Source: Microcaldota archaeon
Lineage (GTDB): Archaea > Micrarchaeota > Micrarchaeia > Micrarchaeales > CABMGC01
NCBI GenBank assembly: GCA_027449585.1
Contig: DAIDLJ010000003.1
Span: forward strand, 1-38,026
Direction: 5' to 3'
DNA: 38,026 bases
The position numbers and the translations under genes are program-made. Positions 30,074 to 34,591 of the stretch are shown piece after piece (position 1 is the first letter of the stretch; each line of letters begins with the position of its first letter). The notes beneath the pieces are model-generated. The model saw nothing but the letters and a program-made list of their open reading frames with translations. It was not told the DNA's origin and did no database searches.

Positions 30074-31090
30074 TTAGTTTGCAATCTTCTTGTGCACTGC
30101 GACTGGCTTTGGCTGGGCGCCTCGCTCCAGGGCAGAGAATTGATACTGCTTGAAGAGCGGCGTGAGGACATCTTTGGACTCTGAGAGCAGAACATAGTGA
30201 TAGGCGCTTAAGCCACTTTTATCGACAAGATTCTGGTTTGCACCGGCCTCCAGCAGGGTCTTGCACATCTCAACGTCCCCGCTTATTGCAGCCAGTATCA
30301 AGGCAGTGTTTCCGAGCAGGTCCTGAGCGTTTACGTTAGCCTCCTTTTTCTTGAGTATCTCCTTCATTATGTAAAGGTTCTCGTTTGATGCGGCAAGTAT
30401 TAGGGCGGTTTCCTTATGCTTGTTCTCTGCGTTTGGATCGGCATTCTTTAGTAGGAGCAACGTGGAGGTCCTGAAATCGTCTGCACGGACCGCAAGAAGC
30501 AGTGGCGTTTCTCCCTCAGCATCATACGCATTGACATTTGCTCCGGCTATTACGAGGAGCTCTGCGGTGTCAAAATAGCCTTTGTGAAGCGCAGTAAGAA
30601 GCGGGGTGTTGCCTTTGACGTTTGTGGTGTTTACGTGCGCGCCGCTCTTTATAAGAAGGTCGATCATGTCGTTGTCCCCTGTGAAGGTGGCATAGGTTAG
30701 AGGGGTGTTTCCTGCCCGGTCCTGGAAATTTACATCTGCGCCTGCATCTATGAGCATTTTTGCGACCTCTTGATTTCCACCGTTGGCCACGCGATGAAGA
30801 GGCGGACTCTCGCCTAGAAGATACGCATTTGGATCGGACCTCCTTGAAAGCAGGAGCCGGACTATCTCTGGATTCATGTTCTTTACAGTTACTGCAAATA
30901 CAAGCGGATGAAAGAACCTGTTCATAGGTCCTTTGGGGGTGTTGACAATTCCCCATAGCATCGGCTCTTCAACGTTTGCACCAAGATCAAGAGCCATCTC
31001 TGCAAGCCCTCTGTTTCCTTCCAGCAGCGCGTCGCGTAGCAGCGCGTTGCCCATTACCTTTAGGGTCTCTGGATTTGCTTCTGAGGACAT
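30074..31090 (-). CDS. Ankyrin-repeat protein
   Basis: Multiple ~33-aa repeats, e.g. GNTPLTYATFTGDNDMIDLLIKSGAHVNTTNVKGNTPLLTALHKGYFDTAELLVIAGANVNAYDAEGETPLLLAV. Confidence 0.9.
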   Translation of the reverse strand: MSSEANPETLKVMGNALLRDALLEGNRGLAEMALDLGANVEEPMLWGIVNTPKGPMNRFFHPLVFAVTVKNMNPEIVRLLLSRRSDPNAYLLGESPPLHRVANGGNQEVAKMLIDAGADVNFQDRAGNTPLTYATFTGDNDMIDLLIKSGAHVNTTNVKGNTPLLTALHKGYFDTAELLVIAGANVNAYDAEGETPLLLAVRADDFRTSTLLLLKNADPNAENKHKETALILAASNENLYIMKEILKKKEANVNAQDLLGNTALILAAISGDVEMCKTLLEAGANQNLVDKSGLSAYHYVLLSESKDVLTPLFKQYQFSALERGAQPKPVAVHKKIAN

Positions 31091-31100
31091 TAATACACCA

Positions 31101-32096
31101 TCATATTCCGGTTACTTTCTTCTTTTTATCTGGAGCTATCTCTACCTTTCCAGGCTCGCTAGCCCTAAGAAGGCTTATCAGGTGCCTGTTGCCGCCGGCG
31201 TTTGCCAGGGATATCAGGGATTCCCATTCCTTGCCTGCATCCTTGAGCTCTGGATGCTTCTCCATCATGTAATCGAACACTTCGCAGTTGTTTGTCTTGA
31301 CTGCATACATTGCAGCATTCATACCAAAACTGTCCGTCGCATGCATGTCCGCACCGCAGTCTATTAGCGCCTTTGCTGCTGCGTTGCTTCCCTTCTGCAC
31401 TGCATAGATGAGCGGAGTTTCCATGTTGGCTCCTCTCACATCGAGACTTGCGCCATGCCTTATCAGCATCTTTGCAATCACGTCGTTGTCAAGCTGCGCT
31501 GCGTAGTGGAGCGCAGTATATCCTTCCGAATCCCTTACGTTGGCATCGACATTGTAATCCAGAAGTATTGCAAGCATTCCATCGCGGCCCTTCTTTGTAG
31601 CCTCTATTACCGGGAAGATGTTTGCCCATCCCCCCGCGTTTGGATTTGCACCGGCTTCAAGCAGTATACTCATATTCATCGATCTGTTGCTCTCTATTGT
31701 ATTCACAAGTGGCGTAGAGCCTTGGGCGTCGGGCTGGTCGAGGCTGACTCCGGGTTCGTTTGTTATGAGTTGCAGTGACCTTGGAGAGCCTTTGTATGCG
31801 GCATAGTGCACCGGGCCTGCTTCCTGAAGCGCCTGATCGAAAGTGGGATCTGCGCCGTTATCGAGCATGGCCTTTATTATCCTATGATCGATGTCAGGTA
31901 TGGTTAGGGCAATTAGTAGCGCTGGAAGGGAACGAGAAGTCTCGACTTCTCCGTTCTTTATCTTTACTGGAAAGGAGACGTTGAGCGCCGCTCCGAGCTC
32001 TATTGCAAGCTCGACCTCCTTATAACTCTTTGACTTTGTTATTGCATCAAGGAGCATATTGTTTACTAGCTCTACGAATTTTCCATCATCTTCCAT
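31101..32096 (-). CDS. Ankyrin-repeat protein
   Basis: Repeats such as GYTALHYAAQLDNDVIAKMLIRHGASLDVRGANMETPLIYAVQKGSNAAAKALIDCGADMHATD. Confidence 0.9.
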   Translation of the reverse strand: MEDDGKFVELVNNMLLDAITKSKSYKEVELAIELGAALNVSFPVKIKNGEVETSRSLPALLIALTIPDIDHRIIKAMLDNGADPTFDQALQEAGPVHYAAYKGSPRSLQLITNEPGVSLDQPDAQGSTPLVNTIESNRSMNMSILLEAGANPNAGGWANIFPVIEATKKGRDGMLAILLDYNVDANVRDSEGYTALHYAAQLDNDVIAKMLIRHGASLDVRGANMETPLIYAVQKGSNAAAKALIDCGADMHATDSFGMNAAMYAVKTNNCEVFDYMMEKHPELKDAGKEWESLISLANAGGNRHLISLLRASEPGKVEIAPDKKKKVTGI

Positions 32097-33550: not shown

Positions 33551-33613
33551 AAATACTTGTCCATATCAATATATAAATACCTTTCCAGTAGATATCTTTA
33601 AATAGTGGTAAAG

Positions 33614-33967
33614 ATGGCTAATACGAACTTTGCAAAGACCAAGTCGGGTAAGAGGGTTGAACTGAATACTAAATTCAAGATAGAAAACATAGTTGCAAGC
33701 GCAGATTTGGGGGTCGAACTTGATCTCTATGGCATAGCAAAGGCCTCGCCTGACGTCGATTACGAGCCGGAGCAGTTCCCTGGAGCCATCTGCAAGATAC
33801 ACGAGCCCAAGACCGCGCTGCTTCTCTTCAAGAATGGCAAGATAATCTGCACTGGGGCAAAAACCGAGGCAGACATCAAGAGAGCAATAGACCAGGTCAT
33901 AAAGATAGTAAAGAACTACATACTTGAGGCGAAGGAGAAGCCTGTCGAAGTGAAGGGCAAGAAGTAA
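33614..33967 (+). CDS. tbp: TATA-binding protein, single-repeat form
   Basis: KIENIVASADLGVELDLYGIAKASPDVDYEPEQFPGAICKIHEPKTALLLFKNGKIICTGAKTEADIKRAIDQVIKIVK is one complete TBP repeat; the ORF then ends in a Lys-rich tail and TAA. TATA box ATATAAATA at about 33571-33579. Confidence 0.85.
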   Translation: MANTNFAKTKSGKRVELNTKFKIENIVASADLGVELDLYGIAKASPDVDYEPEQFPGAICKIHEPKTALLLFKNGKIICTGAKTEADIKRAIDQVIKIVKNYILEAKEKPVEVKGKK

Positions 33968-34591
33968 TCAGCCCTTTATTCTTTTCATTCCTGCCTTGTA
34001 CACGAAGTAGAGCACTACGGCAAAGAGGGCTAGGACTGCGAACATCACCTGGATGTTTGTTATCGAAAGTGCATAGTATCCGAATACTATCAGCGCAGTA
34101 TTCCATATGAGTGCGCCTATAAGCGAGTAGAGATAGAAGTCCTTTAGGTTCATCTTGGCAAACCCTGCCGGGAAGCTTATCAAGCCCCTTACCACTGGGA
34201 GCATCCTTGATACGAACACCGTGAATGCGCCGTTCTTTGCAAACCATCCGCTAAAAGCCTCAAGCGATGACCTATTTATTCTGAAGGTGCGCAGGTGCCT
34301 GTAAACGACGTCCTTCTCTATGAAATAGGCTATCCAATAGTCCACTGATATTCCTATGGCCGTGCCAACCATTGATGCAACTATTGCAATTATCATGTTT
34401 AGGTTTCCGGTGCGCACAAAGTGGCCTGCGAGTGGAAGTATGACCTCGCTTGGCAGGGGAAGCGACGCGGACTCAAGCGCCATAAGGACGATTATTGCCA
34501 AGTAATCGTAGAGAGACATAAAGGCACTTATCGTTGAATATGTGCCTGAGAGTATGTTCACCATCGCACTTGAGATCGATAATATCAGCAT
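33968..34591 (-). CDS. DedA/VTT-family membrane protein
   Basis: SLPLPSEVILPLAGHFV, FVSRMLPVVRGLISFPAGFAKMNLKDFYLYSLIGALIWN. Confidence 0.85.
   Translation of the reverse strand: MLILSISSAMVNILSGTYSTISAFMSLYDYLAIIVLMALESASLPLPSEVILPLAGHFVRTGNLNMIIAIVASMVGTAIGISVDYWIAYFIEKDVVYRHLRTFRINRSSLEAFSGWFAKNGAFTVFVSRMLPVVRGLISFPAGFAKMNLKDFYLYSLIGALIWNTALIVFGYYALSITNIQVMFAVLALFAVVLYFVYKAGMKRIKG

Follow-up and report, generated by a model that had tools for sequence, protein, structure and literature searches.

A single-repeat TATA-binding protein as the only TBP of a Micrarchaeota genome and its probable action as a homodimer

Essentially all archaeal and eukaryotic promoters depend on the TATA-binding protein (TBP), whose two-repeat chain is regarded as universal; in the canonical protein the contacts with TFB are located in the C lobe. 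Canonical archaeal TBPs of solved structure (Pyrococcus woesei, 1pcz/1ais; M. jannaschii, 2z8u; S. acidocaldarius, 1mp9) share with the protein described here the fold, the contact Asn/Phe pairs and the YEPEQFPG stirrup, and TFB and BRE-TATA promoter motifs are, at the level of sequence, present here as well. They differ in that the canonical chain has two repeats and ours one, and in that the canonical N and C identities are missing throughout the Micrarchaeota/Diapherotrites lineage. One TBP-like lobe per chain is also present in bacterial RNase HIII and other nucleases of the TBP-domain superfamily, but the RNase HIII-type lobes are fused to a nuclease, are no transcription factors and match our structural model weakly (3asm, E 0.5). 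In the Methods of Ravarani et al. 2020 single-lobe archaeal TBPs were noted, in line with Brindefalk et al. 2013 (PMC7221094). These are the same kind of object, to which the text consulted gives a single sentence and no taxon, genome context, phylogeny or mechanism (PMC7221094). Our literature search found no analysis of single-lobe archaeal TBPs beyond this passing mention. New here are the sole TBP of a lineage, its A and B paralogues, a single repeat clade, re-duplicated and tandem forms, and the promoter and TFB context.

The window, i.e., the whole 38,026-nt stretch of DNA that was analysed, belongs to a metagenome-assembled genome of 851 kb in 50 contigs (87% complete). As listed in Table 1, it encodes a TBP of 117 AA with one PF00352 repeat (residues 20-102, profile positions 1-85 of 85, 104.7 bits at a cut-off of 22.9), which confirms the one-repeat TBP proposed by the sequence-only reading of this DNA. 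The product is intact, as that reading had it, but the length of 118 AA given there included the stop codon. The protein departs from the canonical chain of two repeats and approximately 180 AA, and the NCBIfam TBP models give half-length matches to it (65-102 bits vs. cut-offs of 181-347). The frame ends at a TAA codon, and a minus-strand DedA/VTT gene starts directly after it, at 33968; since this convergent gene abuts the stop codon, no second repeat follows downstream, as had been claimed. The frame is open from 12 bases 5′ of the ATG, which leaves no space for a repeat ahead of it either. The C-terminal tail, described before as basic, is mildly so (+2 across residues 103-117). Elsewhere in the window, two adjacent ankyrin-repeat genes (30074-31090 and 31101-32096, both on the minus strand) were seen beside an rpoF (Rpb4)-DUF655 pair.

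Table 1. Features of the single-repeat tbp locus and of related TBP forms (positions refer to the window unless a genome and contig are given)
Feature	Position	Strand	Basis or remark
Candidate tbp promoter, AA (BRE-like) + TATATAAATA	33568..33579	+	sequence fit to genome motif
Single-repeat TBP gene (type A), 117 aa + TAA	33614..33967	+	translation; PF00352 104.7 bits
Lone TBP repeat, PF00352 positions 1-85	33671..33919	+	profile match; AF2 model
Asn25 codon (IENIV)	33686..33688	+	invariant in 40 homologues
YEPEQFPG stirrup: Glu51/Glu53 TFB-contact positions, Phe55 intercalating position	33761..33784	+	invariant in 40 homologues
Phe72 codon (LLLFKNGK), second intercalating Phe position	33827..33829	+	invariant in 40 homologues
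TAA stop of tbp frame	33965-33967	+	translation
Convergent DedA/VTT-domain membrane protein gene, locus boundary only	33968..34591	-	PF09335 75.5 bits
Tandem TBP of genome G027, locus L057	G027:C39:8000-11423	reverse, from contig end	linker QEEKRTKGARKPVL; contig breaks within upstream copy
Micrarchaeota families with single-repeat TBP: f1, f2, f3, f5, f6, f7, f8, f10, f13, f14, f16, f17, f18, f21
Micrarchaeota families with two-repeat TBP: f4, f9, f11, f12, f15, f19, f23, f26, f27

A second TBP was searched for in the 87%-complete assembly and none was found, in agreement with the congeners and a one-contig relative: the gene at 33614-33967 is the sole PF00352 match in the 851-kb assembly, and a family-specific profile detected no further TBP repeat at E≤10. 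The fragmentation of the assembly into 50 contigs would fit a two-repeat TBP cut short by truncation or frameshift, but the gene is located 14 kb into a contig of 48 kb and is closed off by a complete DedA gene, and one single-repeat gene of equal architecture is present on different contigs in 10 of 11 congeneric genomes. An assembly fault at about 33967, named before as a possible objection, thus finds no place; the single-repeat state shared by the congeners already refutes it, and we give this explanation practically no weight. Compared with those 10 congeners the tbp domain shows 9-43 silent and 0-7 replacing codon differences. Because replacing changes are few and silent ones many, the repeat is not decayed, in agreement with the sequence-only reading, and the gene is under strong purifying selection.

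The same state is found across family f1, in which none of 79 genomes contained a complete two-repeat TBP. Exactly one TBP match was present in 39 genomes of 10 genera, including the one-contig genome G113, and in 15 genera another single-repeat gene, paralogue B, occurs unlinked to the first; genome G243 has two near-identical A copies. In family f2, unlinked A and B are encoded in nearly every genome, one-contig ones included. Such coexistence in nearly all f2 genomes and in 15 f1 genera would suit a heterodimer, in which the saddle needs a different second half (B or a diverged partner) and A-only genomes miss the partner through incompleteness. Within one genome A and B share 44-55% identity, which makes pairing of the two plausible where both occur. 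Against a required partner, B is absent from the 39 genomes mentioned, which are about 60-97% complete, the one-contig G113 among them, and the window's genome has no other repeat at E≤10. B also groups with A (support 93.8/99, SH-aLRT/UFBoot), and the sister position of the two indicates that B is a later paralogue and not a split-off C repeat; placing B with canonical C was disfavoured by 25-27 log-likelihood units, though short of rejection (p-AU 0.09 and 0.06). We consider an obligatory heterodimer unlikely.

The structure of the single repeat was evaluated with an AF2 model based on 40 homologues of the 117-AA protein (pLDDT 87); prediction from the single sequence was unusable (pLDDT 46). 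The model superposes on one lobe of human TBP (1cdw) at 0.8 A over 81 columns, and a structure search with it returned 44 matches at E≤0.001, which were TBPs without exception. In the alignment of these 40 homologues Asn25, Phe55, Phe72, Glu51 and Glu53 are invariant. The contact residues named by the sequence-only reading, i.e., the Asn of IENIV and both Phe residues, are accordingly present; Asn25 occupies what we take, from established TBP structures, to be the minor-groove Asn position. The assignment of Glu51 and Glu53 follows the TFB-contact positions C.L3.2 and C.L3.4 of Ravarani et al. (PMC7221094).

Results of the comparison with canonical repeats did not bear out the proposed mixture of N- and C-repeat features. 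Across 18 two-repeat archaeal TBPs, the N and the C repeats both have YEPEQFPG as their consensus, and therefore it is not a mark of the C repeat, as which it had been read. The window repeat gave a log-odds score of -50 (canonical N, -53 to -122; canonical C, +56 to +111). Every segment of it leans weakly toward N and none is clearly C-like, so that no mosaic is seen and a chimeric repeat made by intragenic crossover between N and C was ruled out.

The host lineage is Micrarchaeota (Microcaldota at NCBI), of which searches at class and phylum level met one class. Single-repeat TBPs were found in 14 or more of its families; one was also found in family f24. In the Diapherotrites-labelled phylum TBP is mostly single-repeat. 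On an RpoB tree the one- and two-repeat states are interleaved, and at equal costs parsimony cannot decide between a single loss with four regains and five or six losses. Among 12 viral contigs we saw mostly two-repeat TBPs and no intact single-repeat relative. Some further TBP forms were encountered in the survey. In a Diapherotrites-labelled genome (G314), an open frame of 726 AA contains four TBP repeats (G314:C8:9538-10695), and the genome additionally encodes a 377-AA two-repeat TBP. One f2 genome with two more TBP matches carries a canonical-type two-repeat TBP (locus L021, G164:C43), whose repeats group with Thermoproteota/Bathyarchaeota-type TBPs, which points to transfer or contamination. 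In Vulcanisaeta sp. JCM 14467 (L199) the N and C repeats of TBP lie in two overlapping frames on one contig, reflecting a frameshift or a sequencing error.

For the phylogeny we used 69 repeats and 85 columns, with DPANN sampled by Micrarchaeota and Diapherotrites; an earlier tree of 131 repeats, in which the search was too shallow and constraint trees scored higher, left the question unresolved and was not relied on. The tree is divided into three clades: canonical N (UFBoot 91), canonical C (99) and all Micrarchaeota/Diapherotrites repeats (SH-aLRT 99.2, UFBoot 100), the last of which includes both repeats of two-repeat TBPs. Forcing orthology of the lobes costs 46-55 log-likelihood units under LG (p-AU 0.007-0.026) and 29-42 under C20 (p-AU 0.0145-0.107). 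Under C20, full N/C orthology is rejected only marginally (p-AU 0.056), and holding the C repeats of the two-repeat proteins alone with canonical C gives a p-AU of 0.107.

The sequence-only reading had proposed a resemblance to the ancestor of TBP before its duplication, or else a secondary loss of one repeat. As a relic, the protein would mean that the N/C duplication never took place in the line leading to Micrarchaeota and Diapherotrites, and that their two-repeat TBPs were made by independent duplications. Single-repeat genes are indeed widespread across the two DPANN phyla, and solved archaeal TBPs match the window repeat twice and near-equally (Pyrococcus, 77.7 and 78.0 bits). Yet the repeat leans toward canonical N in its log-odds score instead of lying in between, and such a relic requires DPANN to be the first archaeal branch. 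As the repeats of this lineage form their own clade beside separate canonical N and C clades, the pre-duplication origin is not favoured, and we regard it as very unlikely. If true, it would make this protein a surviving pre-duplication TBP, and the two-repeat forms of the lineage would repeat the event behind canonical TBP.

The two-repeat proteins of Micrarchaeota sit among the single-repeat ones in the tree, and in Diapherotrites the N repeats group as sister to the C repeats (80 UFBoot). Identity between N and C inside one chain reaches 49-80% in Micrarchaeota two-repeat TBPs vs. 40-51% in canonical ones. The TBPs of families f4, f12, f15, f19 and f26, which belong to the same repeat clade as the window TBP, are linked near-identical repeats (up to 80%), like a joined version of the presumed homodimer. 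In f1 genome G027 we detected an in-frame tandem tbp at a contig end, with a period of 309 nt and an exact match of 99 nt, which appears to be a covalently linked pair of identical repeats.

The simplest reading of these data, which rests on 85 alignment columns, is that TBP was reduced to one repeat and was then re-duplicated in several lineages; we infer that the direction of change was toward one repeat. The ancestor shared by Micrarchaeota and Diapherotrites would have cut its two-repeat TBP down to one repeat type, or one type would have overwritten it, and later lineages would have kept the single gene, duplicated it as unlinked A and B, or re-fused two copies in one chain. The chief rival to reduction with re-duplication is gene conversion before loss: the two ancestral repeats overwrote each other and were followed by several later losses, with the same homodimer function today. 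Conversion between repeats could imitate the Micrarchaeota/Diapherotrites clade, since it would yield the same grouping, and parsimony with cheaper losses favours a two-repeat ancestor. It is opposed by the nesting of the two-repeat proteins among single-repeat ones and by the sister relation of the Diapherotrites repeats. Both readings alike require loss of N/C identity. We hold gene conversion to be a possible but less probable course of events.

As a symmetric TBP raises the question of how promoter direction is set, TFB and promoters of the genome are of relevance. The window's genome has one canonical TFB with a zinc ribbon and two cyclin repeats, whose BRE-reading helix hardly differs from that of Pyrococcus TFB; in f1 genome G034 (94% complete) TBP is present with no TFB match, probably because of an assembly gap. 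From 240 upstream regions of the window's genome we learned a promoter motif de novo (AAgaTTTATATAT), which reads AA-nn-TTTATATA with a log-likelihood of 158 vs. 73-92 in shuffles. The A-only genome G113 gave AA-gct-TTATAAA (156 vs. 73-92). The TATA core is near-palindromic in both (r 0.74-0.83 in the window's genome and 0.94 in G113), and the BRE-like AA element stands on one side of it only, upstream. Near-palindromic TATA boxes are usual also in archaea with two-repeat TBP. In the two-repeat Micrarchaeota genome G148 the top motif of the upstream regions was TGCAAA-like, giving no TATA motif for a comparison of symmetry. The candidate promoter of tbp itself reads AA-TA-TATAAATA and is located about 42 nt 5′ of the ATG. 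TFB and the BRE-TATA promoter motif are both present in the window's genome, and TBP would be expected to work with them. Promoter polarity in archaea is attributed to the TFB-BRE contact (PMC7289017), so a TBP dimer that is symmetric would not stand in the way of directed transcription. The puzzle of promoter direction posed by the sequence-only reading is smaller than stated, given the BRE-reading helix of TFB and the one-sided AA element.

The single-repeat TBP most likely works as a homodimer, as suggested by TBP structure, its sole copy and its re-fused relatives. Two copies would pair along the faces at which the halves of ordinary TBP meet. The resulting saddle would have true two-fold symmetry and would use two Asn and four Phe residues to bind and bend TATA DNA. 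Direction would be set not by TBP but by TFB reading the BRE on one side of the TATA box. For the whole reading, i.e., a one-repeat TBP as general factor, acting as a symmetric homodimer with direction from TFB-BRE and derived by secondary reduction, we estimate a probability of roughly 0.8.

A lineage with a one-repeat protein as its sole TBP shows that life can do without the asymmetric fused form. Its close relatives offer probable natural homodimers, possible A+B heterodimers and freshly fused tandems, with which the role of the internal asymmetry of TBP in polarity and TFB recruitment becomes directly testable. Together they may represent a repetition, in nature, of the gene duplication from which TBP is believed to derive.
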